Source of the DNA: Lacticaseibacillus mingshuiensis
GTDB lineage: Bacteria; Bacillota; Bacilli; Lactobacillales; Lactobacillaceae
Direction: 5' to 3'
Length of the DNA: 64,000 nucleotides
Assembly: GCF_016861785.1 (NCBI RefSeq)
Contig: NZ_BOLS01000014.1
Coordinates: 1-64,000 of the forward strand
This document shows, piece by piece, positions 6,625-30,969 of the stretch. The notes beneath the pieces were generated by a model. It had not been told where the DNA came from, did no database searches, and saw nothing but the letters and a program-made list of their open reading frames with translations. How positions within the stretch are numbered: position 1 is the stretch's first letter; each line of letters starts with the position of its first letter. A program made the translations under genes and the position numbers.

Positions 6625-6746
6625 AGGGTGCGCAGCGCGGCGTTCAGGTCTGGGTAGCTAGTTCGGCTTAGGTACTTGGTGGCGAACTTGGCCACCGAGT
6701 GCCTGATCCGACTAGATATCCCAGACCTGCCGCGCGGAGCCCAACT
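6625..6746. repeat. intergenic hairpin repeat, copy 1
   Basis: This is a 122-bp element starting AGGGTGCG and ending GCCCAACT. It folds into one long imperfect hairpin, with outer stem GCGCGGC/GCCGCGC, then GGTCTGGGTAGCTAG against CTAGATATCCCAGACC. Related copies are at 27208, 30667, 30791 and 30915, with a fragment near 12085. It is immediately followed by the first few bases of another unit (AGGGTGCG). Confidence 0.85.
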
Positions 6747-6974
6747 AGGGTGCGCAGGTACGCAACTGAAGCAAATTCAGTGTTCCTGACACACGCGGTG
6801 AAAATTTCACCGTTGACGATTCATCAGCGCAACAGTTTCACCTCAGCCTCGCCGCTGGGGCAGTGCCGCCGAGTATGGGCGACGGTACTGCCGGGGCGGC
6901 GACGCCCTTTGTGATAATAGGCAGGATGCGGGTCGCGCCAAGTACGCGGCCCCTTTCTTTTGGAGGAGATCAAC
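6747..6974 (+). promoter_or_regulatory. leader of the P-type ATPase with two hairpins
   Basis: No gene is seen here. A large G+C hairpin (about 6852-6904, GCCGC to GGCGGC) precedes a possible extended -10 element (TGTGATAAT, 6911-6919). A second hairpin, GGGTCGCG/CGCGGCCC (about 6930-6952), ends in CTTTCTTTT directly before the GGAGGAG ribosome-binding site. The second structure could be an attenuator or simply the terminator of upstream transcription. I looked for the conserved core of the manganese (yybP-ykoY) riboswitch and did not find it. Confidence 0.4.
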
Positions 6975-9230
6975 ATGGCAGATACCGGATTAAGTGAACA
7001 AGAAGCGGCGGCCCGCCTGAAAGCGGATGGCCCAAACGAGGTCGCCGAGGCGCCTTATTCGTTTTGGCGTGCGGTGGCGACGCGGCTGTGGGAGCCATCC
7101 GCCTGGATCTTGGAGGCGGCGCTGGTCGTTGAGCTTCTGTTAGGCAAAACCGTGCAGGCCGGCTTCATCGTCTTGATGCTGCTATTTGCTGCGGTGAATG
7201 GCGCGATTCAGGCCGGGCGCGCGCATCGCGTCCTGGCAAGTCTCTCCCAGCAATTGACCCTTTCCGCGACCGTGATGCGCGATGGCAAGTGGGACGTGCG
7301 CCCGGCCCGCGAGCTTGTGCGTGGGGACCTCATCCGCCTGCGTCTCGGCGCGATCGTCCCGGCGGATGCCCAGCTCGCGGCAGGTGGTCCGATCCAGCTC
7401 GATGAAAGCAGCATCACCGGTGAATCCGAAGCGGTGACCCGGAGCCAACACGACCCTGTTTTCGCGGGCACCGCGGTTCTGACCGGCGATTGCTTGGCCA
7501 CGGTCACGGCGACGGGCGCCCAGAGTCGCAGTGGGAAAACGCAGACGCTGCTTGCGACAGCCAGCGCGCCTGGGCATCTCCAGCGCCTGCTCGGCCAGGT
7601 GATCAAGGATCTGGCGCTCGTCGACAGCGTGCTTGTCGTGATCTTGCTGGTCGCCGCCTTGGTGCGCGGGCAAAATTTGATCAGCCTCCTGCCGTTTTTG
7701 GCGATGCTGTTCATCGCGACCATCCCCATTGCGATGCCGTCGAGTTTTGCCGTCGCGAATTCAGTGGAGGCCAACGTCCTGAGCCACCAGCATATTTTGG
7801 TGAGCGACCTCGTCGGCATTCAGGAAGCCGCGGCGATGGATGTGCTCGTGGTCGACAAAACTGGGACGCTGACGGCCAACAAGACCGCGGTCCAGCAATT
7901 TCTCAACCTCAGCGCGCGGCCGGATGCCCAAGTTCGCCAGGCAGCCGCGCTGGCCTGTGATCCGATCGCGCCGAGCCCGCTTGAACAGGCCGTGCGCGAC
8001 TTTGCCGGACCGCTGCCGCAAACAGTGACCGATTTTTCCGCGTTTGACGCGACGCGCGGGTATTCCCAGGCGATCACCCCACTTGGCGTCGTCCGGCTCG
8101 GCGCCTTCGCCAAGCTTTCGTCGCTTGCGCAAAATACCTTCGAGCCCCCAGTCGCTGCGCTGAAAACAGGCCGCAGCCTCGCCGTGATGATCGACGATAC
8201 CTTGTGCGGCGTCTTCATTTTGGCCGACACGCTGCGCCCGGATAGCCAAGCGGCGGTGCAGGCGCTGCGAACCCGCGGCGTGCAGGTGATCATGCTGTCC
8301 GGCGATCACAAGGCCACCGCCCAGCAGATCGCCGGCGCGGTCGGCCTCGATGGCGCAGTCGCGCGGTTTACCGACCTGTCTGACACCGCCGATGTGACGG
8401 CGTTGGCCGGTATCGCCGAGGTGCGGCCGGAAGACAAGCTGACCATCGTCAAGCGGCTTCAAGCGGCCGGCCACATTGTCGGGATGACCGGCGATGGGGT
8501 CAATGACGCCCCTGCCCTGCGCCAAGCCGAGGTCGGCGTCGCGGTGGCCAATGCGGTGCCGCTCGCCAAGCGTGCCGCAAAAATCGTCCTGCTCACGCCC
8601 GGCCTGACGCCTTTGACCGCGATTCTCGATAGCGGCCACCGGGTGTACCAACGCATGCTGACTTGGACCATCACTAAATTATCGCGGACGGCTGAGCTGA
8701 CGATTCTCCTAACGCTGGGCGTTCTCCTGTTTGGCCGCGTGCCGCTTGCCCTCAACGCCATGGTGCTGGTCGCGATCTTGAACGACCTGGTCACCTTGGT
8801 GCTTGGCACGGATCGCACCACCATCACCCATCGCCCAGAAGTTTGGGGCCAGCGCCGCCTGTTGCGGACGGCCAGCGTGCTCGGCGCCGGCTGGACGGTA
8901 CTAGGGCTGGCCTTGTTGATCGGGTTGCACCTGGCTGGGGTCTCGGCTGGAGGCATGAGCACCCTGCTGTTCAACTATTTGATCGACAGTGCCATGCTGA
9001 CGATCTTGATCACCCGCACCGCCCGGCCATTTTGGCGCAGTGCGCCCAGCCTGGCAGTCGGGGTCGCGATCTCGGTGAACGTGATCCTGACAATTGGCCT
9101 GTCGCTGCTTGGCCTTGGCGTGACTTCCGTGTCGTGGCAGGCGCTCGGGGCCGTGCTGGCGCTGACCGTGGTGGCGGCCGTGCTTTTGGATGGATTGTAT
9201 CTGCGCATCAATCAGCGGCATCGCTCGTAG
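6975..9230 (+). CDS. P-type (P3A-like) cation-transporting ATPase
   Basis: This 751-residue P-type ATPase resembles the proton-pump-like P3A class. It shows the actuator motif SITGESEAV, the phosphorylation site VVDKTGTLT with Asp294, and the hinge GMTGDGVNDAPAL. TM4 reads IPIAMPSS, and further helices follow at the C-terminus. The ATG at 6975 lies 6 nt after GGAGGAG; an earlier TTG at 6960 would overlap that site. In Lactobacillus plantarum a pump of this type (MntA) has been linked to manganese and cadmium uptake. Its place beside a manganese ABC importer makes a metal substrate plausible, but proton export cannot be excluded. Confidence 0.85.
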   Translation: MADTGLSEQEAAARLKADGPNEVAEAPYSFWRAVATRLWEPSAWILEAALVVELLLGKTVQAGFIVLMLLFAAVNGAIQAGRAHRVLASLSQQLTLSATVMRDGKWDVRPARELVRGDLIRLRLGAIVPADAQLAAGGPIQLDESSITGESEAVTRSQHDPVFAGTAVLTGDCLATVTATGAQSRSGKTQTLLATASAPGHLQRLLGQVIKDLALVDSVLVVILLVAALVRGQNLISLLPFLAMLFIATIPIAMPSSFAVANSVEANVLSHQHILVSDLVGIQEAAAMDVLVVDKTGTLTANKTAVQQFLNLSARPDAQVRQAAALACDPIAPSPLEQAVRDFAGPLPQTVTDFSAFDATRGYSQAITPLGVVRLGAFAKLSSLAQNTFEPPVAALKTGRSLAVMIDDTLCGVFILADTLRPDSQAAVQALRTRGVQVIMLSGDHKATAQQIAGAVGLDGAVARFTDLSDTADVTALAGIAEVRPEDKLTIVKRLQAAGHIVGMTGDGVNDAPALRQAEVGVAVANAVPLAKRAAKIVLLTPGLTPLTAILDSGHRVYQRMLTWTITKLSRTAELTILLTLGVLLFGRVPLALNAMVLVAILNDLVTLVLGTDRTTITHRPEVWGQRRLLRTASVLGAGWTVLGLALLIGLHLAGVSAGGMSTLLFNYLIDSAMLTILITRTARPFWRSAPSLAVGVAISVNVILTIGLSLLGLGVTSVSWQALGAVLALTVVAAVLLDGLYLRINQRHRS

Positions 9231-9251
9231 TTCGCCTTGATTGCCCTCACT

Positions 9252-9290
9252 AGGACGTAAACCGAAAACGATCGGCTTGCGTCCTTTTTT
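9252..9290 (+). terminator. terminator after the P-type ATPase
   Basis: The stem AGGACG/CGTCCT (9252-9257 with 9280-9285) has an inner CCG/CGG pairing and is followed by TTTTTT. Confidence 0.9.
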
Positions 9291-9390
9291 GTGCCCCTGA
9301 AACCTCTGACCCGAGTCCTTTTCCCGTGGCCGCATCCCCCTGTTGCCCGTCATCGCCGCTGCATGAGAAGCCCTCTCATCATATTTTTCA

Positions 9391-9422
9391 TTGACGTCAA
9401 TCTTTGTTTAGGATAGCCTAAG
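9391..9422 (+). promoter_or_regulatory. promoter with DtxR/MntR-type operator
   Basis: TTGACG (9391-9396) lies 17 nt before TAGCCT (9414-9419). Across the -10 is the inverted repeat TTAGG-ATAG-CCTAA (9408-9421), the form recognised by DtxR-family metalloregulators such as MntR, SloR and ScaR. Repression of the importer when manganese is plentiful is the expected outcome. The regulator gene itself is not in the window. Confidence 0.7.
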
Positions 9423-9466
9423 TTCGGTAAAACGTACTCGTTACGTTTTGGAAGGGAGGTGATCTC

Positions 9467-10210
9467 ATTTTAGAAGCTCGTCAACTCAGCGTCAGTTATT
9501 CCCGCGGCCAGCCCGTGCTCCAGGCCGTGTCATTCACCCTGCCGGCCGGCTGCCTCGTTGGCATCATTGGTCCCAATGGCGCCGGCAAGTCCACGTTGAT
9601 CAAAGCGATGCTGTCGCTCATCCCCCATCGCGGCCGCACCCTTTTTGACCAGCAAGACTTGCACGCGGTGGCGCGCCATGTCGCGTATGTCCAGCAGAAA
9701 AGTGGCCTGGATCTGACGTTTCCGATCACGGTCCGCGAATGCGTGGCGCTTGGCCGCCAAGCTGACGCAAATGCGTTCGGTCATGTGCGCGGCGCAAAGG
9801 AAGCCGTCGCACAGGCTCTGGCGCAGGTCGGGATGGCCGATTTTGCGGCCCGGCCCTTGAGCCAGCTGTCTGGCGGCCAGCTCCAGCGTGTTTTGATCGC
9901 CAGGTGCCTCGTGCAAAACGCGCAACTGTTGGTACTCGACGAACCGTTTGTCGGCATCGATGTGCAAAGCGAGGCGGCGATCATGGCCGTGTTGCGCGCA
10001 CAAAAACGGGCCGGCAAAACGATCTTGATCGTGCACCACGACCTCAAGACCGTCCCCGATTATTTTGACTGGGTCGTGATGCTGAACCGCGCGCTGATCG
10101 CTGCCGGGCCGGTCGCGACCACCTTCACCCCTGACAATCTTGCGGCGACATACGGCCTGCCGCACCCCCCCGCGAAAGGAGCGCCCGATGCTTCAGCTAT
10201 TTTTCACTGA
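9467..10210 (+). CDS. mtsC: manganese/zinc-type ABC importer, ATP-binding protein
   Basis: This is the ATPase of a metal ABC importer, about 247 residues. It has Walker [10 protein letters not shown], signature LSGGQLQR, Walker [11 protein letters not shown] and the H-loop His in IVHHDLK. The first strand ([13 protein letters not shown]) requires a start near 9467, where the codon is ATT, placed 6 nt after a perfect GGGAGGT. No ATG, GTG or TTG occurs in frame between the upstream stop (9428) and GTG 9515, and starting at 9515 would remove the first strand. ATT initiation is therefore likely. Its 3' end overlaps the permease gene by 23 nt. The symbol follows the L. plantarum mtsCBA usage. Confidence 0.88.
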
Positions 10211-11036
10211 CCTGGCAGAATTTCATTTTCTGCAAAACGCTTTGATCACCGCGGTGGCAGTCGGCATTGTCGCCGGGGTGATCGGCAGTTTCATCATCTT
10301 GCGCGGGCTGTCCTTGATGGGCGACGCGATCTCGCATGCCGTGTTGCCCGGGGTCGCGCTGTCCTTCATGTTGCACATTCCGATGGTGATCGGCGCGGCC
10401 GCGTTCGGCATTTTGGCGGCGACCATCATCACGTTGATCAAGCAATTCAGCGCGATCAAAAGCGACACCGCGATCGGCATCACCTTCAGCACGTTTTTGG
10501 CGCTGGGCGTGATCTTGATCGGCCTGGTCCACACCACCACCAATCTCTTTCACATTTTATTTGGCAATGTTCTGGCCGTCCAAGATGGCGACCGCAACCT
10601 GACGCTGGGCATTGCCGCCGCGGTCCTGGTGCTGGTGGCCCTCTTTTTCAAGCGCCTGCGCCTGACGTCATTTGACCCCCTGATGGCGCAGGCGATGGGC
10701 ATTCGCACGAATTTTTACCATTTTCTATTGATGATCATGCTGACGCTGGTGGCCGTTGTGTCCATGCAAAGCGTCGGCACCATTTTGATCGTCGCCCTCT
10801 TGATCACGCCGGCCGCGACCTGCTACCTATTTGCGGACCGCCTGGTGGTGATGGTCATCGCCTCGGGCCTGCTCGGCGGCCTGATCTCGCTGGTCGGCTT
10901 AGTGTTCGGCTACACCCACAACATTGCAGTTGGTTCTTGTATCGTCATTCTCGGCGCGCTGGTCTTCGTCGTCTGTTTTCCATTTTCCAAAAAACAGCAC
11001 CTGATCACGCTCCCCCTTGGAGGAAAAAATGTTTAA
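10188..11036 (+). CDS. mtsB: manganese/zinc-type ABC importer, permease
   Basis: This 282-residue polytopic membrane protein belongs to the ABC-3 (ZnuB/MntB/PsaC) permease family. It has about eight hydrophobic segments, and the conserved [17 protein letters not shown] near the N-terminus contacts the ATPase. ATG 10188 follows AAAGGAG by 7 nt, and the start lies inside the ATPase gene. The 3' end overlaps the binding-protein gene by 8 nt. These overlaps indicate one translationally coupled operon under the MntR-type box upstream. Confidence 0.92.
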
Positions 11037-11988
11037 ATCAATGACCCGTCTCTTGCCCCTGACCGCCGCTGTGGCCGCCTTGATCGGCCTTGCCGCATGC
11101 GGCCATACCCAACCGAAAACATCTGAGGCCACCAAACCCATGCTGGCCAAGACAGTCTCAGTCGTCGCAACGGATACCATCATCGGCGACATCGCCAAAA
11201 ATATCGCCAAGGATAAGGCGACAATTCACGTCATCGTCCCAGTGGGCCAAGACCCCCATGAATACGACCCGAAACCAGCCGATGTGTCGGCCACGGGCAA
11301 AGCCGACGTGATCTTATACAACGGCATCAACTTGGAAAATGCGCCCGGCGCCTGGTTCACCAAGATGATGGCCAACGAAGGCCCCAAGGCACAAAAGAAG
11401 TCCTTTGCCGTCAGCGATGGCGTCGAGGTCATTCACCTGCAGGGCAAGCAGGAAGCCGCCAAGCTCGACCCGCATGCCTGGCTCAGCGTCGGCAACGGCA
11501 TTATTTACGCGCAGAACATCGCCAAGCACTTAAGCGATGCTGATCCGAAAAACGCGACGTTCTACAACAACAATATGGTGGCCTACACCACCAAGTTGGC
11601 AAAACTACATAAAGAGGCCCAGGCTAAATTTGACAAGATCCCGGCCGCGAAAAAACTGATCGTCACCAGTGAAGGCTGCTTCAAGTATTTTGGCAAGGCC
11701 TACAATATTCCGTCCGCTTATATCTGGGAGATCAACACGGAGGAAGAAGGCACCCCGGCGCAGATCTCGACTTTGGTCCGCAAGCTTAAAAAGACCAAGA
11801 CCCCGGCGCTGTTCGTCGAAAGTAGCGTCAATGGCAAGCCAATGGCCACCGTTGCCAAAGACACCGGCATTCCGATTCACGCCACCCTGTTCACTGACTC
11901 CATTGCCGCCCCAGGTCAACAAGGCGACAACTACTATGACATGATGAAGTGGAACCTGGATAAGATCGCGGAAGGGCTCTCGAAATGA
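11029..11988 (+). CDS. mtsA: manganese-binding lipoprotein (PsaA/SitA-like)
   Basis: This 319-residue cluster A-I metal-binding lipoprotein has a signal peptide ending in the lipobox LAAC (Cys24). The four metal ligands of PsaA-type proteins can be placed: His in GQDPHEYDP, His in KLDPHAWLS, Glu in [10 protein letters not shown] and Asp in LFTDS. The Glu at the third position and the segment [13 protein letters not shown] favour manganese over zinc, since zinc binders usually carry His there and a His-rich loop that is absent here. ATG 11029 follows GGAGG. It delivers the metal to the membrane permease. Confidence 0.93.
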
Positions 11989-12223
11989 GAGCTGGCCGCA
12001 TTTGGAACGATTGGGTGTCGTTTGCGTTGTTCCTGACTCGGGGCCGCTGACCGGGCTGAGGCCCCCACACGACGCACCCTTTTCAGTTGGGCTTCGCGCG
12101 GCAGGTCTGAAACAGCTGCCCATCCGCTACGAACCCATACGTTGTCGCATTCCCCCATGCCTCAACGCGTTGGTTCAGCACGCGGCGAAGTCATTGTGCT
12201 AGCTCCCCTGTTTTGGAACCAGA
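11989..12223 (-). repeat. degenerate copy of the hairpin repeat family
   Basis: No gene is apparent between the lipoprotein and dps. On the minus strand the right end of a repeat unit (CAGACCTGCCGCGCG, then AAGCCCAACT, 12085-12109) is followed by a new unit head (AGGGTGCG). That second unit folds with its own stem (GGGTG and TCGT against ACGA and CACCC, about 12012-12080, around a GGGGCC/GGCCCC core). The left arm of the first unit is missing. Confidence 0.6.
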
Positions 12224-12229
12224 TATAAT
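12224..12229 (+). promoter_or_regulatory. -10 element of dps
   Basis: A consensus TATAAT lies 26 nt before the dps start. No good -35 is present at the normal distance (TTGTGC is 24 nt upstream), so the promoter may depend on an activator or be an imperfect match. Confidence 0.5.
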
Positions 12230-12249
12230 AGAAGAAAAGGAGGATCACT

Positions 12250-12720
12250 ATGTCATATTCTCAAACCAAACTTGTTTTGAACCAGCTTGTCGCCGATCTC
12301 AGCGCGCTGGCAGTCCACGTGCATCAAGTGCACTGGTACATGCGCGGCCCGAATTTTCTGAAGCTGCATCCCCTGATGGACAAATACATGGATGAGCTCA
12401 ACGACCAGCTCGACGTCGTTTCCGAACGGCTGATCACGCTGGACGGCTCGCCATATGCCAGCCTCAAGGAATTCGCCGACCACACGACGATGGCCGATGA
12501 GCCCGGCGAATGGGGCGTGGCCACACCGGAGCGCCTGCGCGGCTTGGCGACGGCGTACAGCCGGCTGGCGGACACCTACCAGCGCGGCATCGACGTGAGC
12601 GGCGACGAACACGACGATGTGAGCCAAGATATCTTTATTGGCTTCAAGGGCGACATCGAAAAAAAGATCTGGATGCTGAAGGCCGAACTGAATGAAGCCC
12701 CTGGCATCGATCCAAGCTAA
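12250..12720 (+). CDS. dps: Dps-family ferritin-like protein
   Basis: This 156-residue protein of the Dps family forms dodecamers that oxidise and store iron and protect DNA from peroxide. The ferroxidase-site residues are visible in the first helix (VHVHQVHWYMRG, His and Trp-Tyr) and in the second (MDELNDQLDVVSERL, Asp and Glu). The AAAGGAGGA ribosome-binding site is 7 nt upstream of the ATG. It is a single-gene unit with its own -10 and a strong terminator. Its position after a manganese importer fits an oxidative-stress theme, but it is separately transcribed. Confidence 0.93.
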   Translation: MSYSQTKLVLNQLVADLSALAVHVHQVHWYMRGPNFLKLHPLMDKYMDELNDQLDVVSERLITLDGSPYASLKEFADHTTMADEPGEWGVATPERLRGLATAYSRLADTYQRGIDVSGDEHDDVSQDIFIGFKGDIEKKIWMLKAELNEAPGIDPS

Positions 12721-12736
12721 CCGAATGCACATAAAG

Positions 12737-12768
12737 AGGCGGCGAGCGTATGGCTCAGCCGCCTTTTT
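12737..12768 (+). terminator. terminator after dps
   Basis: The stem AGGCGGC/GCCGCCT (12737-12743 with 12758-12764) is followed by TTTTT. Confidence 0.9.
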
Positions 12769-12820
12769 GGGTGCCTTTCGTGGGGCCGCTCAACGGATCA
12801 GCGCGACCCCGCCTGATCGA

Positions 12821-13840
12821 TCAAAGCTCCTCTTGTTTTTCCTTGGCGATCTCCTCTTCAAGTGGCGATGGCGGCCCGATCAAGGTGGACCAGGCGGCCA
12901 GGCGTGCGCGCAAACTCGGCGTCGCTTGCGGGCCATTTTCCAGCTCGGCGGCTTCCTTGGCGTCCACCTCGTCGGCAAACACGCGCCGGTATTCCTGCAG
13001 CACCCGGCCGAGCTGCTGGACATAACCCCAGTGATGGACGAGTTGCGCCGCGTTCATTTTCGACAGCACAAACAGGCTCAGCGAGGCGTATTTTCGCACC
13101 GCGATCGGCGTTAGGGCTGGCTTGGCCTCGGCCACCTGCAGGTACATCGCACCGAGTTGGTGAATCGCCTCGAGGTCACTGCGCTTGAAGCCGGTGTGCA
13201 CCGTGCTGCCGAGGTTGATGCGGTACTGATAGACCGGCTCGTCGACAAAATTGATGCGGGAGACCCGCGGCAGGAGCTGACCGATCAAAAACGCGTCCTC
13301 CATCAGATTAAAATCCGCAACTGGCAGCGGCGGCTCAAACAGGTGGGCGGCAAACAACTTATCCCACAAGTAGCCGCGCATTTCCTTGTCCTCCAGCCAC
13401 AGCCGGTACATCTCATCGCCGGTCGCCGAGAATGTCGGGGCGTGAAAGGGGCGGCTAAATTTGGCCGCGGGGTTCCAGTACGCGTAATGATTGACCGCCG
13501 CGATGTCGGCCTCCCCGATCGCATTTTGCATGGTCGACAGCCAATTGGGCAACACCATGTCGTCGCTATCCATGAAGGTGATGTAGGCGCCGCGGGCCTG
13601 GTTCAATCCGACTTGGCGCGCGATCGCCTGACCGCGGTTGGGCACATGACTCACTTGCAGGCGCGCATCGGCCGTCGCGTAGGCATCGAGGATCCCCGGC
13701 GTTTCATCCGTCGAGCCATCGTCGATGAGCAGCGCTTCGAAATTGAGATAATCTTGGGCAAGCAAACTGTCCAGCGCCGCCTCAAGGTATTTTTGGGCGT
13801 TATAAACGGGCATGATCACCGAAAGCAACGGTTGTGTCAT
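12821..13840 (-). CDS. family 2 glycosyltransferase
   Basis: This 339-residue GT-A fold glycosyltransferase begins LLSVIMPVYNAQKYL. It has the nucleotide-binding DDGSTDET, the DxD-type motif DSDDMVLP and the later acceptor-side WDKLF and LMEDAFLIG segments. No membrane helices are seen, so it acts at the cytoplasmic face, likely on a cell-wall polysaccharide, teichoic acid or glycolipid precursor. ATG 13840 follows CGGAGG. It is not in an obvious polysaccharide cluster. A TATGCT near 13864 may be its -10. The sugar donor is unknown. Confidence 0.88.
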   Translation of the reverse strand: MTQPLLSVIMPVYNAQKYLEAALDSLLAQDYLNFEALLIDDGSTDETPGILDAYATADARLQVSHVPNRGQAIARQVGLNQARGAYITFMDSDDMVLPNWLSTMQNAIGEADIAAVNHYAYWNPAAKFSRPFHAPTFSATGDEMYRLWLEDKEMRGYLWDKLFAAHLFEPPLPVADFNLMEDAFLIGQLLPRVSRINFVDEPVYQYRINLGSTVHTGFKRSDLEAIHQLGAMYLQVAEAKPALTPIAVRKYASLSLFVLSKMNAAQLVHHWGYVQQLGRVLQEYRRVFADEVDAKEAAELENGPQATPSLRARLAAWSTLIGPPSPLEEEIAKEKQEEL

Positions 13841-13924
13841 AAGAGCCTCCGCGTTGATTTTAGCATAGCCGAGGGCTTTTCTGGGCCGCGAAGTCTTGGA
13901 AAAAGAGATTCTTACTGAACTAGC

Positions 13925-13961
13925 AAAAGCGCGCACCCCCATTTCAGGGATGCGCGCTTTT
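13925..13961. terminator. bidirectional terminator
   Basis: AAAAGCGCGCA (13925-13935) pairs with TGCGCGCTTTT (13951-13961). It can end transcription in either direction and lies just downstream of the ABC permease gene. Confidence 0.85.
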
Positions 13962-13979
13962 GGCGGACTTACGCTGAAC

Positions 13980-17555: not shown

Positions 17556-17565
17556 GCTCACTCAC

Positions 17566-20233: not shown

Positions 20234-20253
20234 TTTTTCCATGCTCCTTTGGC

Positions 20254-20334: not shown

Positions 20335-20348
20335 CGGGGGGAATTGTA

Positions 20349-20882: not shown

Positions 20883-21058
20883 CGTGACAGATAGCGCACT
20901 GGAGATATTTTTCTTAAAACAAATTTTTCCCTCTTCGGCTCTTTGGGGGCAAAAATCACGGGTATATAAAAAGAGCAACTCTTTTAACGAGAGTCGCCCA
21001 AACGTTAGCGTAAAGAGGAGCCTGAGTAACAACTCAAAAAAGCCTAGACCAAAGTGAA

Positions 21059-21181
21059 TCAATGTTTAGCGACCAAGCTTTCATAATTGTCATGAACAGA
21101 CGCGACTCGTCCTGTTGAATCAGCCATAAACCAGAAATGAAACGGTTTTCCCTCATATGAGAACTCAATATTTGACTTCAT
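21059..21181 (-). pseudogene. possible remnant of a small gene
   Basis: The stretch 20883-21281 holds no intact gene. On the minus strand a 40-codon frame (MKSNIEFSYEGK, PFHFWFMADSTGR, then VASVHDNYESLVAKH) has a protein-like composition but no ribosome-binding site, and an in-frame TAG lies 10 codons upstream. It may be the tail of a decayed gene. A small AAAAGAG/CTCTTTT hairpin near 20970-20987 also occurs here. Low certainty. Confidence 0.25.
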
Positions 21182-21281
21182 AGGTGAGGTGCGAAGGCCA
21201 AAGTCCACAACTGGACTATTGATCTATCGGGAAGCATCGATTTGCAACCCGCAGTGAGCTCGCAAACCATAATACGACGAC

Positions 21282-22313: not shown

Positions 22314-22316
22314 TCC

Positions 22317-23006: not shown

Positions 23007-23027
23007 GGTTTTCTCCTTAAAAAAAGA

Positions 23028-23056
23028 ATAGTACTACACATAATGTATAATACTAT
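23028..23056. promoter_or_regulatory. 29-bp near-palindrome before the response regulator
   Basis: The outer arms ATAGTA (23028-23033) and TACTAT (23051-23056) and the inner arms ACAT/ATGT are symmetric, and only a few internal positions fail to match. It lies about 22 nt upstream of the start and overlaps the likely -10 region. It does not look like the direct repeats normally bound by OmpR-type regulators. Confidence 0.5.
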
Positions 23057-23106
23057 CCCCCAAATTCAAATTATTTTGCTTATCAATTTCCCGCTGAAGA
23101 CCCGCT

Positions 23107-25134
23107 CTAACCAGCCCGCCGCTTGCTATTGATTCCGACCGTGGTCCCAACCACAGCAAGCAACGCGAGCATTGCTGTTCCAAACAGGGTGAGCCCTTCG
23201 TTGACCGCGTCGCCAGCCTGAGGTAGCAACTTTTCAGAAGGCATCTGGGAGGACATCTGACTCGATTTGTCAGCAGCTTTCTGCATCATGGCTGGCTTCA
23301 TAGCCGTATCAGAACCAGTTTTTGTGGTCATGCCACTCTTGGCTGGGGCCGTCATCGCAGCCATCTTGCCGGTTGAAGCGCCATGACCGCTTGGCTTAGA
23401 CATGGCCGCGCTCTGATCGCCCTTTGATTGACCTGGGGTGGTCATGGCTTTCTCAGGCACATTGATGGTGATCTGAACGCCGGCCTTGGTCGCGACCGGG
23501 CTCGTCGTGATTGCTTTGCCATCGCTACCGATCGCATAGATAGTCACGGTTGCACCGTAAGTCTGCGTGCCATTTTTGCGGAGCTGATCAATCAACGCTT
23601 GACCTGTTTTCCCGGCAAGATTGCCGCCAAGGACCACCGAATAGGCATATTCCCCCTTAGCTAACCCACTTATTGGCAGAATTGGCTTGTTCATGGCCGT
23701 CCCATTGTTCGACCACGCCGCGAGATTTGAACCGCTCAGCAGAAGCCGGGTGAGCATCCCATCCCCACCGAATGCCTCAAATGGAATCACCTGATTAACG
23801 CCCGCGGTGAATGGCCCATCGCCCTTGGCCGCCACTAAATAGGCTGCCGGCACATTGATCTGGTTCTTAATGTTGCTCGTCAAGCCTTCAACATTGAGCT
23901 GAATACCTGCCTTTGTCGCAATGACCTTCGACGTATCCGCCTGACCGTCAGCACCTGCAGCGTATAGCTTGACTGTTGCGCTGTATGTCTGGGTGCCATT
24001 CAGCCGCAACTGATCTAACAAGGCTTGGCCCTGCTTGCCCGCAACATTGCCAGCAAGATCAACTTCATAGAAATACTGACCAGTGGCAAGGCCTGAGATT
24101 GGCAATAGCGCGGTGTTCATCGCGGTTCCGTTATCAGACCATGGTGCGGCCACAGAACTGTTTAACAAAAGACGTGTCAGCATGCCATCCCCGCCAAACG
24201 CCTCATATGGAATCACTTGGTTGACGCCTGCCGTGAACGGGCCTGATTCCTTCGCATTTGCCAAATACTGTGCAGGCACTGTAATTGCGCTGCTAACCTG
24301 GTTTGTCAGGCCGGTGAACGAGATCCGAATTCCCGTCTTTGTCGCCACCACGTTCGTTGTATCAGCCTGGCCATCACTACCCGCGGCATAAACTTTTAGT
24401 GTCGCGCTGACTGTTTGCGTTCCATCTTCGCGTAACTGATCCAGCAGGGCCTGGCCTTGCTTTCCTGTTAAGTTACCCCCAAAATCCACTTCATAGAAAT
24501 ACTGACCACTAGCCAGCCCCATAACCGGTGATAACGCGGCATTCGCACCTGTCCCATTGTCAGACCATGGGGCAGAAGCGGCACTGGTCAACAGCAACCG
24601 TATCAGCATCCCATCACCACCAAACGCTTCGAACGGAATGACCTGGTTGACCCCGGCGGTGAACGGCCCATCACCAGTTGCATTGGCCAGCGTCTGAGCC
24701 GAAACCATCAAAGTCGAAGTCACTTTGGCGGTCAATTCGCTGGCCGAAAGATTTGAACTAACTGCCGGCGTTGACGCAGCGCTGGCGACCTTCTCCAAAT
24801 CTGCAGGTGTGGAAGTTGAGGTCCCTGATGCCTCACCTGTCGCGGCAGAAGTGGTTGAGGCCACTGGTGTCGTCTCATCAGCCTGTGTTGATTGAGGCGC
24901 GGTCTGAGCGTCCGGTGATGACTGAGAAGTCGTCGTCTTATCCATAGTTGCGGATGCTTGAATGGCAATTGGCTCAGTGGCCGCACTCACCGCGGTGATT
25001 GTCCCACCCAAACCACCGGCCAAGGTCGCAAGAACGATCGCACTGTACACCCAGAATTTTCCGACCTTATATGCCTTGTAATGAACCCGCATGTCCCGTA
25101 ATGCAGCCTTTACAGTATGTCGAGAATTACTCAT
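23107..25134 (-). CDS. cell-wall-anchored repeat protein
   Basis: This is a surface protein of about 675 residues. The N-terminus has a KxYKxGKxW-type signal peptide (HYKAYKVGKFWVYS) followed by a hydrophobic core. A Thr/Ser-rich stretch precedes three tandem repeats of about 142 residues, starting near residues 147, 289 and 431. Each contains GPFTAGVNQVIP, EAFGGDGM, an NGT segment and GKxGQALxDQLR. A Met/Lys/Ser-rich linker leads to the sorting signal LPQAG, a membrane helix and a basic tail (NSKRRAG). ATG 25134 is about 8 nt from GGAGG; two adjacent ATGs are alternatives. It may be a target of the downstream two-component system. Ligand unknown. Confidence 0.88.
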   Translation of the reverse strand: MSNSRHTVKAALRDMRVHYKAYKVGKFWVYSAIVLATLAGGLGGTITAVSAATEPIAIQASATMDKTTTSQSSPDAQTAPQSTQADETTPVASTTSAATGEASGTSTSTPADLEKVASAASTPAVSSNLSASELTAKVTSTLMVSAQTLANATGDGPFTAGVNQVIPFEAFGGDGMLIRLLLTSAASAPWSDNGTGANAALSPVMGLASGQYFYEVDFGGNLTGKQGQALLDQLREDGTQTVSATLKVYAAGSDGQADTTNVVATKTGIRISFTGLTNQVSSAITVPAQYLANAKESGPFTAGVNQVIPYEAFGGDGMLTRLLLNSSVAAPWSDNGTAMNTALLPISGLATGQYFYEVDLAGNVAGKQGQALLDQLRLNGTQTYSATVKLYAAGADGQADTSKVIATKAGIQLNVEGLTSNIKNQINVPAAYLVAAKGDGPFTAGVNQVIPFEAFGGDGMLTRLLLSGSNLAAWSNNGTAMNKPILPISGLAKGEYAYSVVLGGNLAGKTGQALIDQLRKNGTQTYGATVTIYAIGSDGKAITTSPVATKAGVQITINVPEKAMTTPGQSKGDQSAAMSKPSGHGASTGKMAAMTAPAKSGMTTKTGSDTAMKPAMMQKAADKSSQMSSQMPSEKLLPQAGDAVNEGLTLFGTAMLALLAVVGTTVGINSKRRAG

Positions 25135-25403
25135 CATCATAGCCTCCAAATAGTGTATAAATTTCAGTCGCCATTACGCGTTCCTGTTTAGGGTCCCAAT
25201 GTATCATCAGAGGCTTAATTGACTTGTAGTAAATTCTTAACAGACTATTAAATCGGAAGTAAGCGCTGTCTCTTCTCGCGGGCCGCCATCAGTCCACGAC
25301 CAGAACTATTTATTTTACTTTTACCACTGGTCCAAATCAAAACGAGTCATGAAGAATCTCAGCTTAGGTCCCAACAATCACCGTCCGACTGTTTTTGGGG
25401 TGT
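25135..25403. other. intergenic region upstream of the surface protein
   Basis: No gene is seen. The A+T-rich part (about 25160-25250) presumably holds the surface-protein promoter. It includes TTAAGAATTT-like stretches on the minus strand that could serve an OmpR-type activator, but I could not define a convincing -35/-10 pair. Confidence 0.3.
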
Positions 25404-25452
25404 AAAAAAACGCCTTTCAAAGGCAACCGAATCAGCTGCGCATGAAGGCGTC
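25404..25452 (-). terminator. terminator after the Fic gene
   Basis: On the minus strand CGCCTTCA (25443-25450) pairs with TGAAAGGCG (25411-25419), with one bulged base, and is followed by a run of seven T. Confidence 0.85.
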
Positions 25453-25468
25453 TTTGACTACTCACCTT

Positions 25469-26119
25469 TCAATTTATCCCGAACACCGCATTCTCATACA
25501 GCCAGTTGGACACCGCATCATTCCCAATCAGATAAAACTTCTGCAGCTGGCTCAAATACCAGTGCATCTTATCATCGGGAATGGCAAGAATACCGGCGCC
25601 GGCGTGATAGAGAATCGCATTGGCGGCGACCAGTGCCGTCCGCTTATTGCCATCGTAAAAGAGCTGTGTCTTGGACAAATACAGCATCGTCCGAAGCGCG
25701 GTCTCAGTCGCACTTCCGGCATTCTCTTCTAGCCCCTGTAGTGTGGCCGTTGCGATCACTGCATCCGGCAATGGCGGGACATAATCATCGCGACTGAGAC
25801 TGACCAGCACATTTTCCGTCCGAAGCGTCCCGGGCCGCATCCCCCCACCACCTTGCACGACTGCATTCAGTTGCGCGATTGCGGCCAGATCCATCTGAGG
25901 GAGCGTCTTCGCCAATTCCAGCGCATGCTTCAAGTTGAGGATGATCTCAATCGCCTCAGGCTTCACGCCGGCGACGGTGACATTGTTGAGAATCGCCTCC
26001 GTGTCCAGCCGAGTGGTTGCAAGCCCCTCGAAATGACCGGCGCTGTAGACGATCCCCGGCAAATTTTTTTCAAACAACATCGCTTCTTGCGAAGGCGTCA
26101 GGTGAAACTTGTTTTGCAT
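25469..26119 (-). CDS. Fic-domain protein with altered active site
   Basis: This 216-residue Fic-fold protein is related to enzymes that transfer AMP or other groups from nucleotides to target proteins. The core loop reads TQLFYDGNKRTA. Phe154, Asp156, Gly157, Asn158 and Arg160 fit HxFx(D/E)GNxR, but the catalytic histidine position is Gln152. An N-terminal HFEG segment resembles the self-inhibitory motif of some Fic proteins. ATG 26119 follows GAGAGGAAA. It is a single gene with its own terminator and no antitoxin partner. It is either inactive as an AMP-transferase or uses another chemistry. Confidence 0.82.
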   Translation of the reverse strand: MQNKFHLTPSQEAMLFEKNLPGIVYSAGHFEGLATTRLDTEAILNNVTVAGVKPEAIEIILNLKHALELAKTLPQMDLAAIAQLNAVVQGGGGMRPGTLRTENVLVSLSRDDYVPPLPDAVIATATLQGLEENAGSATETALRTMLYLSKTQLFYDGNKRTALVAANAILYHAGAGILAIPDDKMHWYLSQLQKFYLIGNDAVSNWLYENAVFGIN

Positions 26120-26232
26120 CTTGCCATTTCCTCTCAGCAATCGGTCTGTCGCGTCGATTTTTTTCAGGATACAAGAAAGCGACCCTCGAAAGGAGGATCG
26201 CATCGTTGTCGTAAAAATTGAGAGACGAAAGA

Positions 26233-26625
26233 TTAACGCTTGGAGAACTGGCTCGCTTTGCGGGCTTTCTTCAAACCGTACTTCTTACGTTCCTTCATAC
26301 GAGGGTCACGTGTGAGCATACCGGCGCGCTTGAGGGGACCGCGGAAATCCGGGCCAACAGTCAAAAGAGCGCGGGAAATGCCGTGACGAACTGCCCCGGC
26401 CTGACCGGAGAAGCCACCACCGTTAACGTTGACAAGGACATCGTAGCTGCCCTTTGTCTCGGTGATATCGAATGGCTGGTTGATATCCAAGATCAAGTTC
26501 TCATATGGAAGATAGTCATGGACGTCTTTGCCGTTCATCGTGATTTTACCGGAACCTGGGACCAAACGGACCCGGGCAACGGAGTTTTTGCGGCGACCTG
26601 TGCCGCTGTAAGATACTTGAGCCAC
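26233..26625 (-). CDS. rpsI: 30S ribosomal protein S9
   Basis: S9 (130 residues) binds 16S rRNA in the small-subunit head, and its C-terminal tail reaches the P-site tRNA. The N-terminal [16 protein letters not shown] and the C-terminal [17 protein letters not shown] with terminal Lys-Arg are characteristic. It follows rplM by 13 nt in the conserved rplM-rpsI operon. Confidence 0.98.
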
Positions 26626-26638
26626 AGTTGTGTCCTCC

Positions 26639-27085
26639 TTAGATTAGGTTCGTAATGTCGAGTACTTCCGGCTTCTGCGCTTCGTGAGGGTGCTGGTCCC
26701 CTGCGTAAACGTGAAGCTTTAGAAATTGCTGATGGCCGAGCGTGTTCTTGGTCGGCAACATTTTCTTAACGGCATATTCGACTAAGCGAGCTGGGTTGTC
26801 CTTCAAAAGGTCGCCAGCCACTTCATGCTTCAAACCACCTGGATGTTGACTGTGGTGATAGTAGATCTTATCCGTTGCCTTACGACCGGTCAGCTTAACT
26901 TTGCCGGCGTTGATGACGATCACGTTGTCGCCCACATCGGTATGAGGGGTGTAGGTCGGCTTGTTTTTGCCGCGCAAGATGGTTGCAACGACAGAAGCCA
27001 AGCGGCCGAGACTGATATCAGTGGCGTCGATCAGGACCCACTTGCGTTCGATTTCACCTGGCTTAGCCATGAATGTTGTACGCAC
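26639..27085 (-). CDS. rplM: 50S ribosomal protein L13
   Basis: L13 (148 residues) is an early assembly protein of the large subunit. The segment [14 protein letters not shown] and the later [17 protein letters not shown] are diagnostic. GTG at 27085 (then CGTACAACA, giving the usual MRTTF start) is preferred, 9 nt after GGAGG; frames reaching further upstream would include the ribosome-binding site. It has its own promoter and leader, separate from truA. Confidence 0.97.
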
Positions 27086-27162
27086 GATTTGTTTCCTCCA
27101 ATATTCTGTGCTGTTTGACACGCATTAAGTTTCCGGGGCTTATTGTGGGGCAAACAATACCG
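27086..27162 (-). promoter_or_regulatory. putative L13 leader
   Basis: The transcript from the promoter below begins with a hairpin TATTGT/ACAATA around TTGCCCC, followed by AGCCCCGGAAAC. This agrees with the short Firmicutes L13 leader that is thought to mediate autoregulation by L13. The family assignment is from memory, so moderate confidence only. Confidence 0.45.
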
Positions 27163-27168
27163 TCTACT

Positions 27169-27197
27169 AGAATACAAAAAAAAGGCGCGCGTGTCAA
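27169..27197 (-). promoter_or_regulatory. promoter of rplM-rpsI
   Basis: On the minus strand TTGACA (27192-27197) and TATTCT (27169-27174) are separated by 17 nt, close to consensus. Confidence 0.8.
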
Positions 27198-27207
27198 TCA
27201 TTATCAA

Positions 27208-27330
27208 AAGGGTGCGGAGGCCCGTGGGATGGTCGAGTAGCTAGTTTGGCTCGGGTGCTTGGCGGCGCACTTCGCCACCGAGTGCACGAGACAACTAGAT
27301 ACCTCGACCATGCGGGCCGGAGCCCAACTG
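27208..27330. repeat. intergenic hairpin repeat, copy 2
   Basis: This has the same head (AGGGTGCGGAG) and tail (GGAGCCCAACTG) as copy 1, but different stem bases. The outer stem is GGCCCG/CGGGCC instead of GCGCGGC/GCCGCGC. The inner stem is GGTCGAGTAGCTAG against CTAGATACCTCGACC, one pair shorter on both arms. Pairing is kept despite the changes. It lies between truA and the rplM promoter. Confidence 0.85.
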
Positions 27331-27347
27331 AGGGTGGACCAGTAGCG

Positions 27348-28112
27348 TCAACGCAACGACTGTTCCCCATCATAGTAAACTTCTTTCAAATATAACCCGG
27401 AGGCCGGCGCGGTGCCACGGGCCTGCTGGCGGTCTTTTACCTCAAACAGACGCAAAAAGTCGTGCACATCGCGGCGCCCGGTCCCAATTTCCAAAAGCGT
27501 CGCGACCAGAATGCGGACCATGTTGTACAAAAATCCATTGCCGTAAAATTCAAAGACCACCTCGTTGGCCGCCACATCCTCGCGCACCGTTGCTTCATAG
27601 ATCGTGCGCACCTTGTCCGTGATCACGCCACCGCTTGCCGCAAAGCTGGAAAAATCATGCGTCCCGACCAGATCATCGAGCGCGACACGCACCCGATTCA
27701 AGTCAAGCTTATAGGGAAAATGCCCTGTGTATAGCCGCTTGAACGGATCCGTGTAGCGTCCGCGCTGAACGCGATACATATAACGCTTGCCAGTCGCCGA
27801 ATACCGCGCGTGAAAAGTGGCCGGCACGATCTCCGCCTTGAGGATCTCAACATCCAGCGGCATCAAGCTGTTCATCGCACGTAGCATCGCCTCGACCGGA
27901 ATATTTCCCGGGTAATCAAATGACACGACTTGTCCAAGCGCATGGACCCCGCTATCGGTGCGGCCAGAGCCATCGATATGGAAATGATCCACCTTTGCCA
28001 TTTTCGCCAGCGCCTTTTGCAACACGCCTTGGACCGTTCGTTGATTGGGTTGGACTTGGTAGCCGGCAAAATGCGTCCCGTCATAGGCCAAGGTCAATTT
28101 ATAATGCGTCAT
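27348..28112 (-). CDS. truA: tRNA pseudouridine(38-40) synthase TruA
   Basis: TruA (254 residues) converts uridines 38-40 in the tRNA anticodon arm to pseudouridine. The start [25 protein letters not shown], the catalytic Asp in [14 protein letters not shown] and the later [11 protein letters not shown] are family hallmarks. It follows ecfT by 14 nt, as in other lactobacilli where truA closes the ecf operon. Length is normal. Confidence 0.97.
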
Positions 28113-28126
28113 TGACGGTTCCCTTT

Positions 28127-28921
28127 CTAGGCGCGGAGCAACAGCAACAACACCGTGAGCACGATCATGCCCGCGGCGGCCGCCCCGTCTCGCCGGTGAT
28201 ACTTCAGAACGCGAAACTTGCTGCGCCCATCGCCGCCTTGGTACCCTCGCGCATCCATCGCGGTGGCGAGGTCCTCGGCGATGCTGAAGCTATCCACAAA
28301 CAGCGGAATGAGAAGCGGCACGACCGCCTTCATTTGCTGGAAAAGATTGCCCGAGCCAAAATCCACGCCACGCGCGCGCTGCGCATTCATGATCTTCGTC
28401 GTCTGATCCATCAGCGTCGGTACGAACCGCAGCGCGATCTGCAAGACCAGCGCCAGCTCGGTCACCGGCACATGCAGCACACGCAGCGGCCGCAGCAGGC
28501 TTTCCACCGCATCCGCCAGTGACAAAGGTTGCGTGGTCAAGGTCAGCAGCGTCGAGATGAAAATAATCAGCACAAAGCGCATAAAGATGAACGCCCCGTT
28601 GGACAGACCAAACTGCGTGATCGCCAGCCAGCCCCATTGCCAATACACTTTGCCACCTGTCGTGAAAAAGACCTGCAGCAGCACGGTGAACAGAATCAGC
28701 CACAACATCGGTCGGACGCCTCGCAGGAAGAAGCCCAGCTTGACTTTAGACAACCAGATCATGAAAAAGGTGGCCAGGGTCATCACTAAATAGCTTTTCC
28801 AGTCATTGGCCAGGAAGATGATCCCGATGTAGTAGAAACTCGCCAGCAATTTTGTCCGCGGATCGAGTTGATGAATCCAAGAGTCCCCCGGTATGTAGCG
28901 CCCTAAGATCAATTTATTCAT
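28127..28921 (-). CDS. ecfT: ECF transporter transmembrane protein EcfT
   Basis: EcfT (264 residues) is the membrane scaffold of the energy-coupling factor module, which pairs with various substrate-binding S components for vitamins and metals. It has about five membrane helices and two Ala-Arg-Gly signatures, in [10 protein letters not shown] and AMDARGYQG, that contact the two ATPases. ATG 28921 follows GGAGG, and the start overlaps the end of ecfA2 by 8 nt. Its N-terminus ([20 protein letters not shown]) is typical of the family. Confidence 0.96.
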
Positions 28922-29780
28922 GGTGGGCGCCTCCGATCTGTGGCAACAGTTGATCCGCCAGCTCATCCGAGGTCAATGGCAACGGGTCGAACCGAAAGCC
29001 CTTGGCCATCAGTTGCTCGGCCATCGCGGTGGCTTTCGGCAGCCCCAGCTGATGCGCACGCAGCCAATCGGGATCCGCGAAGATCTCGCGTGGACTGCCT
29101 TCCTTGATCAGCGCCCCTTGATCCATCACCAGCACGTGGTCGGCAAAATCGGCGACATCATCCATTTGATGCGTCACCAGCACGATCGTCAGGCCCTGGG
29201 TCTCGTGGAGCCGCTCAAACATCGTCATCATGTCGCGCCGGCCCGCCGGATCCAGGCCCGCAGTCGGTTCATCGAGCACCAACACCTGTGGCTGCATCGC
29301 AAGCACGCCAGCGATCGCGACCCGGCGCATTTGCCCACCGGACAGATCAAACGGCGACTGCGTGAGCACCTCCTCGGGCAGGCCCACCAACGTCACCATT
29401 TGTTTGGCCAGGGCGGCCGCCTCATCATCGCTGGCCCCGAAGTTTTTCGGGCCAAACGCGATGTCTTTGGCAACAGTCTGCTCAAACAACTGATTTTCCG
29501 CGAATTGAAAAACCATCCCGACTTTTTGCCGCAACGGCTTCAGATTTTTATTATTGGTCTCGGCCGTGATCACCCGGTCGCCAATGGTCACAGAGCCACT
29601 GGTCGGCTTCAGCAACGCGTTCAGGTGCTGCAAAAGCGTCGACTTGCCGCTGCCGGTGTGGCCAATGATCGCCGTGTAACTGTGATCAGAAATGGTGGTC
29701 GAGACATCGCGCAAGCCTTCCCCGGCAAACGGGGTCCCTGCCTGATAGGTGAAGCTTACATGGTCGAATGTAATGTCCAC
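28914..29780 (-). CDS. ecfA2: ECF transporter ATPase EcfA2
   Basis: This is the second ATPase of the ECF module (288 residues). It has Walker [10 protein letters not shown], signature [14 protein letters not shown], Walker [14 protein letters not shown] and H-loop VTHQMDD. It overlaps ecfA1 upstream by 25 nt and ecfT downstream by 8 nt, so translation is coupled. Together with EcfA1 it forms the heterodimer that drives EcfT and the S component. Confidence 0.96.
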
Positions 29781-30592
29781 AGGTAGTTCACCAGGCCTTC
29801 CTCGTCAAGATAATGTGCGGGCATGTTGACACCGCGGGAAATAAGCGCATGTTTGAGGCGCTCTGCAAATGGCACGTCCAACCCAAGCTCGATCAGCTCA
29901 GGCCCTCGGGCGAAGATCTCCGCCGGGGTGCCGCTTTCCTTGATCGCGCCGTCGTTCAAGATGATCACCCGATCCGCGCTAGCCGCCTCGTCGATGTCAT
30001 GGGTGATCGATAAAACAGTGAGGCTCTGCCGTTCACGCAGCGCCTGAATCAATTGAAGCACTTCCAGGCGGCCAGCCGGGTCAAGCATTGACGTCGCCTC
30101 ATCCAAGATGATGATGTCCGGCCGCTGGGCAATGATCCCGGCAATTGCGACTCGCTGTTTTTGCCCGCCGGAAAGCCGCGCTGGCTCCCGTGAGGAAAAG
30201 GCCGACATGTTGACCTGCTCCAACGCGTCATCGACCCGAACAATCATCTCGTCGCGCGGCATTCCGCGATTTTCCAAGCCAAACGCCACATCATCGGCCA
30301 CCGTTGCGCCAACGAACTGGTTATCCGGATTTTGAAAAACAATACCGACCTTCGCCCGAATATCCCAGATGTTTTCTTCGGTGAGCGGCAGGCCCGCCAC
30401 AGTCACCTGCCCACTGGTGGGTGCCAATAGGCCATTGATATTTTTCGCGAGTGTGCTTTTCCCGCTCCCATTGTGGCCGATAATGGCGACCCACTCCCCT
30501 TGTGCGATGTCCAAAGAGACATCCGCCAGGGCCGGGTGCGTCGCGTCGGGATACGTATAGCTCAAATGATCGATCTGAATAGCCTCTGTCAT
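29756..30592 (-). CDS. ecfA1: ECF transporter ATPase EcfA1
   Basis: This is the first ATPase of the ECF module (278 residues). It has Walker [10 protein letters not shown], signature [14 protein letters not shown], Walker [14 protein letters not shown] and H-loop [11 protein letters not shown] 30592 ([12 protein letters not shown]) lies after GGAGGGG. In most lactobacilli ecfA1 follows rplQ directly. Here about 3.4 kb of hairpin repeats, a sucrose hydrolase gene and gene-poor DNA intervene, so it must have its own promoter, probably just upstream of 30592. Confidence 0.96.
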
Positions 30593-30666
30593 GACGCCCC
30601 TCCGTTCCAATGCATAACACGAACATAATACCATATTTTAGCCCTAAGCGGAGGCGATGAAAAGGG

Positions 30667-30789
30667 AGGGTGCGGAGCGCGGCGTCCTGGTCTGGGTAGC
30701 TAGTTCGGCTTAGGCGCTTGGTGGCGCACTTGGCCGCCGAGTGCCTGAGTCGGCTAGATATCCCAGACCTGCCGCGCGAAGCCCAACTG
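30667..30789. repeat. intergenic hairpin repeat, copy 3
   Basis: This is a full 123-bp unit, very close to copy 1, with outer stem GCGCGGC/GCCGCGC and inner stem GGTCTGGGTAGCTAG/CTAGATATCCCAGACC. It is the first of three tandem units upstream of ecfA1. Confidence 0.9.
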
Positions 30790-30790
30790 G

Positions 30791-30913
30791 AGGGTGCGGA
30801 GCGCGGCGTCCTGGTCTGGGCAGCTAGTTCGGCTTAGGCGCTTGGTGGCGCACTTGGCCGCCGAGTGCCTGAGTCGACTAGATATCCCAGACCTGCCGCG
30901 CGAGGCCCAACTG
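30791..30913. repeat. intergenic hairpin repeat, copy 4
   Basis: This is a second full unit in direct tandem, about 97 percent identical to copy 3. Differences include T-to-C in the inner stem (GGGCAGCTAG) and G-to-A in its partner region (GTCGACTAG). Confidence 0.9.
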
Positions 30914-30914
30914 C

Positions 30915-30969
30915 AGGGTGCGGAGCCGAGCGCTTAGGGGTGGGGCAGCTAACTTGGCTCGGGTGCTTT
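30915..30969. repeat. truncated hairpin repeat, copy 5
   Basis: This has the head AGGGTGCGGAG and the left arm only (TTAGGGGTGGGGCAGCTAA, then CTTGGCTCGGGTGCTT). The sequence diverges before the right arm, so this unit cannot form the long hairpin. Confidence 0.7.

Follow-up and report, generated by a model that had tools for sequence, protein, structure and literature searches.

A Bacilli-wide family of tandem hairpin repeats, probably mobile and conserved for the fold of one strand

The EFAR elements of enterococci are palindromic miniature elements of variable length, assembled from modules, mostly ~170 bp long and integrated at stem-loop targets. Judged by description, they come closest to a family of hairpin repeats that we analyzed in a 64,000-nt stretch of the Lacticaseibacillus mingshuiensis genome (the window: positions 1-64000 of contig 14, in a genome of 2.76 Mb and 56 contigs). 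In contrast to EFAR, each unit of this family is a single hairpin of ~120 nt, units follow one another head to tail with spacers of 0-6 nt, and the family occurs across the Bacilli. Where EFAR has stem-loop targets, part of the arrays described here lie after T-tracts and others at stop codons or at sequence resembling a ribosome-binding site (RBS). We consider it probable that the units are non-autonomous mobile elements, mobilized in trans, whose folded plus strand is under selection. EFAR is classed among the miniature inverted-repeat transposable elements (MITEs) (PMC3733652), and an Enterococcus faecalis family, Efa-1, is reported as 163 bp long with 65 copies and an adjacent stem-loop pair (PMC2267715). 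Efa-1 and EFAR are probably one and the same.

Other palindromic repeats offer further points of comparison. Repeats of the ERIC, YPAL and bcr1 type are intergenic, non-coding sequences of ~100-170 nt with predicted hairpins and a mobile character (PMC2267715, PMC3733652, PMC3446304). The hairpin family resembles those accounts in being intergenic, non-coding, hairpin-forming and of similar size, and differs in its tandem arrays, covariation at nearly every pair, a favored strand and a class-wide range. The BOX elements of Streptococcus are modular intergenic repeats of variable number with predicted RNA structure (PMC3049150); there, modules A, B and C repeat inside the element, whereas here the whole hairpin repeats. 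REPs are described as 20-40 bp palindromes that form two super-families and carry a short tag at one end (PMC3733652). Like REP/BIME sequences, the hairpin units are high-copy, palindromic, clustered and intergenic, but they are ~120 nt long, and the Y1_Tnp domain of the REP/RAYT system was undetected in four unit-rich genomes. Integron attC sites, in turn, are folded single strands of conserved structure and variable sequence, arranged in polar arrays; each end of a site has its box (RYYYAAC/GTTRRRY), and gene cassettes separate one site from the next. The hairpin family differs from them in having such a box at the 3' end only, many scattered loci and no gene cassettes between units, the 0-6 nt spacers holding no genes.

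The family can safely be filed as a MITE-like mobile palindrome that is tandem, class-wide and conserved on a single strand, with the comparison to EFAR made by description only. Like MITEs, its units are short, non-coding, high-copy, intergenic and interspersed. The initial annotation of the window, made from its sequence alone, had named a match to a known transposon-derived MITE as a result that would speak against its proposal of structural selection; no search matched one, EFAR having been compared by description only. No description of the family turned up in the literature searched, which includes few subscription papers, and it may be described elsewhere.

Fold, covariation and strand polarity

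That each unit folds into one long hairpin, as first proposed from the letters, agrees with energies and shuffle controls. The four full units of the window reach -68.8 to -85.7 kcal/mol, each as one long hairpin, and their z-scores of -6.2 to -8.8 against 200 dinucleotide shuffles exclude chance folding. The fold starts with a terminal stem of 4 bp and a GA-rich internal loop, continues with an 8-bp stem that a conserved G-U closes and with a 5' bulge of 4 nt, NYYA in most cases, and finishes in a long stem with its short loop. Viewed by eye across lineages, the internal loop has GA on both sides in most, the outer stem of ~7-8 bp is closed by C-G and G-U, the long stem carries a U-A/A-U step, and the terminal stem and the loop are short. 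The GA loop may resemble tandem-GA or kink-turn motifs.

The initial annotation had also noticed matched changes on the two arms of one copy, and such changes turn out to be general. In a model-free MAFFT alignment of 86 of the 92 distinct full-length copies of the source genome (A2; five short or irregular copies and one near duplicate were dropped), RNAalifold gives 40 pairs, 28 of which have changed on both sides. In the same alignment, what had been taken for the matched loss of one pair is more plausibly a 5' bulge that is one base shorter, with the 8-bp stem intact. Three wider alignments were made by fitting to a model and are biased in its favor. The first (A3) holds the best 150 of 158 matches from the source genome and its sister G021, the closest relative in the set; paired cells amount to 97.7%, compared to 80.2% in shuffled and 31.9-39.0% in slid controls, and the covariation score is 0.522 versus 0.198 in the shuffled ones. 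With 64 units from 29 genomes (27 of the same genus, 2 others) and one plasmid (A4), two-sided change is seen at 36 of 40 pairs, with a score of 0.768 versus 0.199. Across Bacilli (A6, 67 rows) the corresponding values are 38 of 40 pairs and 0.835 versus 0.212; one of five measures there, that of further pair types, was reached by 17 of 500 shuffles. One row of A6 is a minus-strand match of the window unit at 6626-6743, which was counted for covariation and left out of the strand test (66 rows). These statistics ignore relatedness, and the slid controls retain it. Building a covariance model and searching the own and related genomes, as had been suggested at the outset, thus reveals covariation that is not corrected for kinship, and with its controls it strongly supports selection for structure.

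Pairing is kept by one strand in particular. The plus strand folds better than its complement in all 92 distinct full-length copies of the source genome, with RNA parameters (mean advantage 12.9 kcal/mol) as well as with DNA parameters, and across Bacilli the same holds for 62 of 66 rows under RNA parameters and for 65 of 66 under DNA parameters. Outside the pairs dominated by wobbles, G-U exceeds A-C by 204 to 49 in one count and by 179 to 54 across Bacilli. Certain wobbles are virtually fixed: three positions in A2 keep theirs in 85, 83 and 75 of 86 copies, and the G-U pair beside the 5' bulge is retained in 145 of 146 rows of A3 and, at columns 26-122 of A4, in 63 of 63 rows with letters. 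Over the whole class the pair beside the bulge is kept in 51 of 61 rows (6 have A-U, 4 are unpaired). The initial annotation had offered RNA or cruciform DNA as the selected form. RNA, the more probable form, fits, and so does single-stranded DNA; a cruciform is unlikely because only one strand keeps the pairing, via conserved G-U.

Arrays, turnover and presumed sites of insertion

A blastn search with one unit returned 77 matches in the source genome, and an iterative profile search of fetched loci extended this to 106 copies, 94 of them full length; at least five more were found by covariance models only (C20:40293, C13:62711, C1:166098, C8:27288 and C10:12893). Units are about 113-126 nt long and form 45 arrays of 1-5 units, partial ones counted. 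By a simple coding model they are intergenic: no array is contained in a gene, and six run into the end of a predicted gene, by 1-23 nt. Neighboring genes show no clear orientation preference around the 45 arrays (14 same/same and 17 opposite/opposite with respect to the units, by the same kind of codon model), and an mRNA element acting in cis in a fixed orientation was rejected on this ground. Arrays tend to be sharp on the 5' side and ragged on the 3' side: in 63 of 75 arrays of the source and sister genomes, no more than 22 nt separate the first unit from a second 5' end, whole or as a remnant (two arrays were skipped as internal in this count), and nine of the 12 partial units in the source genome keep their 5' part; two keep the 3' part and one is cut by the contig end.

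Neighbors within an array are either nearly the same or clearly different. Of the adjacent pairs, 73 in all, 59 share less than 80% identity and 12 share 95% or more, with two in the range between. Duplication followed by divergence was rejected as the origin of adjacent units, since the bins from 0.80 to 0.95 hold 2 of 73 adjacent pairs compared to 15-18% of all pairs. Two sequence types, A and B, alternate in the source genome (12 of 44 adjacent pairs of the same type, null 21.1, P 0.002) whereas the sister shows no significant alternation (15 of 29 against a null of 14.0), and we claim no general rule.

Comparison with the sister genome indicates how quickly the contents of arrays change. 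Sixteen orthologous array pairs were obtained from sister stretches picked around sister hits, a choice that under-samples unit-free sister sites. Their flanks are 93-100% (5') and 75-98% (3') identical; even so, 14 of the 16 arrays differ, by the number of detected units in 11 and by replacement of a unit (≤81% identity) in three, and two are unchanged. Between rplM and truA, the two genomes agree in all 400 nt of the 5' flank, and their units are 75% identical. The original contrast between selected structure and passive spread thus needs qualification: structure is selected, and units also spread and turn over. Near-identical units at separate loci share their AGGGTG..AACT ends and have unlike spacers and flanks. 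Presence and absence at an orthologous site was seen at one site, where G027 has a unit and all four relatives compared (G005, G010, G028 and G022) have none at the corresponding position; the five genomes are probably members of the casei group.

Arrays often follow terminator-like T-tracts. On the 5' side, TTTT lies within 16 nt of 12 of 44 arrays in the source genome and of 10 of 33 in the sister, largely at the same loci, against 6.1% of upstream background windows; on the 3' side the counts are 1 of 44 and 0 of 33. A T-tract precedes 11 of 31 arrays detected in G027, a set in which some matches are shortened or on the wrong strand, and at rplM-truA both G027 and G028 have units directly past the terminator. 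Further arrays begin at stop codons or, as in G027, next to a CCTCC that resembles the RBS of a divergently oriented gene. Replichore-biased insertion was considered and not upheld: among the matches listed, and with the origin assumed at the contig start, arrays divide 15 versus 26 in G027, which leans to one side, and 18 versus 22 and 9 versus 15 in two further sets of arrays, with no significant bias. The lack of a clear orientation or replichore preference is expected of an inserted element.

Range of the family and the units of the window

Two covariance models, R1 and the broader R2, were used to follow the family, and the genome counts are lower bounds, since candidates were limited in number and filters were strict. 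In a set of 100 genomes that includes the source genome, R1 matches at least 24 of the 29 other genomes of the genus and at least three more distant ones. R2 matches at least 54 of 395 Lactobacillales genomes (23 of 80 genera), at least 35 of 398 Bacilli genomes (15 of 146 genera), 33 of these outside Lactobacillales, and at least four of 398 in a phylum-wide sample, all of them Bacilli, a sample whose non-Bacilli share was not counted; the source genome is included in all three counts. A casei-type query yields 117 blastn matches in G027, 67 in G005 and 53 in G022. The same query gives no matches in G020 and G006, both matched by R1, and R1 none in G022; zero counts are therefore not absences, each search missing genomes that the other finds. 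Because a palindrome lets the profile match either strand, some G027 arrays are given on the wrong one. Arrays L321 and L326 of G027 also include units of a shorter sub-type, which aligns with the profile from position 17 onward only, and elsewhere in this genome a lysine riboswitch adjoins a unit (L063 1699-1874, minus strand). The units of G482 presumably resemble a common intergenic repeat of Bacillaceae. In distant Bacilli, short tandem repeats that look unrelated by eye lie soon 3' of the units (L356 1640-1850, L352 1740-1900, L354 1660-1730).

Similar units also occur on plasmids. The casei-type query matches 13 plasmid records of Pediococcus and Lacticaseibacillus at 76-80% identity, and none among phage records. 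A unit of G171, at L374 993-1110 on a 104.6-kb contig, occurs in 83 plasmid records including lactobacilli, Pediococcus and Listeria, at ≥99% identity in 68 of them, which suggests hitch-hiking through the recent spread of a shared plasmid segment. No annotated feature covers the match in any of the 13 records of the former query or in any of the 25 of 83 records viewed for the latter. The window units had no matches among plasmid records. At the gathering score, no Rfam match covers a unit in the window, in a set of 16 loci or in one of 17; below it, mostly miRNA hairpin models appear at window positions 30600-31000 and none for L072.

Within the window, everything listed in the initial annotation (four full units, a half unit and a fragment) is present at verified coordinates, except that the second copy starts at 27209 instead of 27208. 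The first unit (type A, 122 nt, 6625-6746, plus strand) begins 3 nt past the eno stop codon and is followed by the 5' remnant of a next unit, AGGGTGCGCAG, at 6747-6757 (plus strand); the sister carries a different unit here, 81% identical. On the minus strand, a 33-nt fragment of a 3' end at 12085-12117 was recognized by nhmmer (E 0.0004), with a remnant AGGGTGCG at 12073-12080 (minus strand), 4 nt past it. The unit between the rplM leader and truA (type B, 121 nt, 27209-27329, plus strand) is 99% identical to another unit of the same genome at C7:130983-131103, and an AGGGTG remnant stands at 27331-27336 (plus strand). The array between cbiO and scrB, also on the plus strand, comprises a full unit at 30667-30788, 95% identical to unit 1 of the sister array, its near duplicate at 30791-30912, ~2.5% different, and a 5' half unit found by profile search at 30915-30978, cut near the hairpin tip.

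Two of these places have regulatory RNAs nearby. An L13 leader (Rfam) lies at 27108-27161 on the minus strand upstream of rplM, and the hairpin unit begins 47 nt beyond it. A fluoride riboswitch (Rfam) at 5213-5276 precedes the enolase gene (5335-6621) and a P-type ATPase gene (6960-9230). With a second enolase at C6:24337-25584 that is 55% identical, the enolase of the window looks like a fluoride-responsive paralogue.

Proposed mobilization, competing explanations and meaning

The mechanism that we favor would involve an enzyme encoded elsewhere that recognizes the folded plus strand, as RNA or single-stranded DNA. Copies would be inserted at the edges of transcription units, particularly just past terminator T-tracts, and also beside existing units, which would build arrays; near-identical neighbors would then be removed by slippage or recombination. 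The copies would probably form strong hairpins in read-through transcripts, as a side effect and not as the cause of their persistence. A bolder version, possible though doubtful, makes the family a Bacilli-wide counterpart of short interspersed nuclear elements (SINEs): an RNA-like element of ~120 nt that multiplies via a folded single strand of RNA or DNA and is served in trans by an enzyme of host or mobile origin. It would enter at the ends of transcripts and form tandem arrays whose neighbors are fresh duplicates or dissimilar, and the GA loop, the G-U and the NYYA bulge would be the recognition site of the enzyme.

Several observations weigh against mobile elements under selection of this kind. 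No mobilizing enzyme was found in the genomes and neighbor genes checked. Y1_Tnp is present in 13 of 30 genus genomes and was not detected in the unit-rich G001, G006, G011 and G014, a distribution on which RAYT/IS200 was rejected as the mobilizer. Near the arrays of the source and sister genomes, 285 open reading frames (ORFs) were predicted, and ten ORFs were scanned against Pfam; the early remark that no transposase is nearby holds among the ten flanking window ORFs scanned. A recurrent neighbor gene was likewise rejected as mobilizer, the recurring families that were checked being ordinary (ABC ATPases, MFS transporters, P-type ATPases, an EF-Tu-like GTPase and GFO/IDH oxidoreductases) and none a transposase. 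The Y1_Tnp and neighbor-ORF checks found no insertion sequence (IS) partner, and no IS-type terminal inverted repeat was recognized, though no search for IS ends was made. Around the empty sites corresponding to the G027 unit the sequence differs as well and leaves no clean footprint, and at rplM-truA G022 has the terminator with no intact unit, followed further on by a weak partial match of 13.9 bits. New insertions look slow, since each of the three window loci is occupied in both sisters, and at those three places R1 finds a unit in 5 of 60 loci of other species, with the reservation that R1 misses casei-type units. Similarity between spacer and 5' flank is weak (the final three bases agree in 10 of 39, against 3.9 under the null, P 0.001), and a target-site duplication is weakly suggested at most. 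As to the fold, the plus strand has no advantage under RNA parameters in four of the 66 class-wide rows. In 50 close unit pairs the one-sided changes kept a pair 59 times and broke it 59 times; selection on individual copies is therefore modest.

Covariation could also arise by mutation alone, if template switching in a DNA quasi-palindrome kept the arms complementary and copies spread passively. Palindromic arms and tandem repeats are generally good substrates for this process, matched two-sided changes occur even at ≤12% divergence (23 kept, 3 broken in the 50 close pairs), and exchange of a whole inner segment between units could swap both arms together. Template switching would, however, give perfect DNA palindromes, in place of which fixed wobble positions are kept; G-U is preferred over A-C by ~4:1 on one strand, bulge and internal loop are retained across Bacilli, and passive palindrome correction would not be expected to give such one-strand polarity. 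We regard this explanation as unlikely. Nor do we think it probable that the units are RNA hairpins acting in cis and selected locus by locus as terminators, insulators or mRNA-stability elements. Their place between genes, often directly past stop codons or terminators, and the strong folding of one strand would suit this role, and known palindromic repeats affect neighboring mRNA, according to three reports (PMC3049150, PMC3446304, PMC3733652). The unbiased orientation, the different unit number or content between sisters in 14 of 16 arrays and the rarity of units at the same loci in other species, the last subject to the insensitivity of R1 to the casei type, speak against it.

Two further readings start from the architecture of the folded strand. 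If the arrays encoded free structured RNAs with a function in trans, for instance as protein-binding decoys, and spread by recombination, the class-wide loop, bulge and wobbles would be those of a protein-binding RNA and 117 matches in one genome (G027) would be understandable; the patchy distribution over Lactobacillales and Bacilli (at least 54 of 395 and 35 of 398 genomes) and the fast turnover of units make this improbable in our eyes. Folded single strand, polarity and tandem arrays also recall the single-stranded DNA recombination sites of attC-like cassettes or the REP/RAYT units of an HUH transposase, and the 3' end, GCCCAACT, contains a RYYYAAC-like box. Against this, the arrays have no cassette genes, the 5' end has no matching box, Y1_Tnp was undetected in the four unit-rich genomes and the replichore counts, with the limits given above, show no significant bias, which leaves such a system very unlikely.

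Taken as non-autonomous mobile elements with a selected plus strand, the hairpin units point to a little-described mobile family selected for its folded shape. Its presumed casei-group hosts, relatives among well-studied food and probiotic species, are rich in units. Because the structure is kept across Bacilli while the sequence changes in matched pairs, the family offers a large natural data set for telling RNA-level selection from palindrome-specific mutation. It also makes the search for the mobilizer concrete, as this enzyme should bind a defined folded strand.

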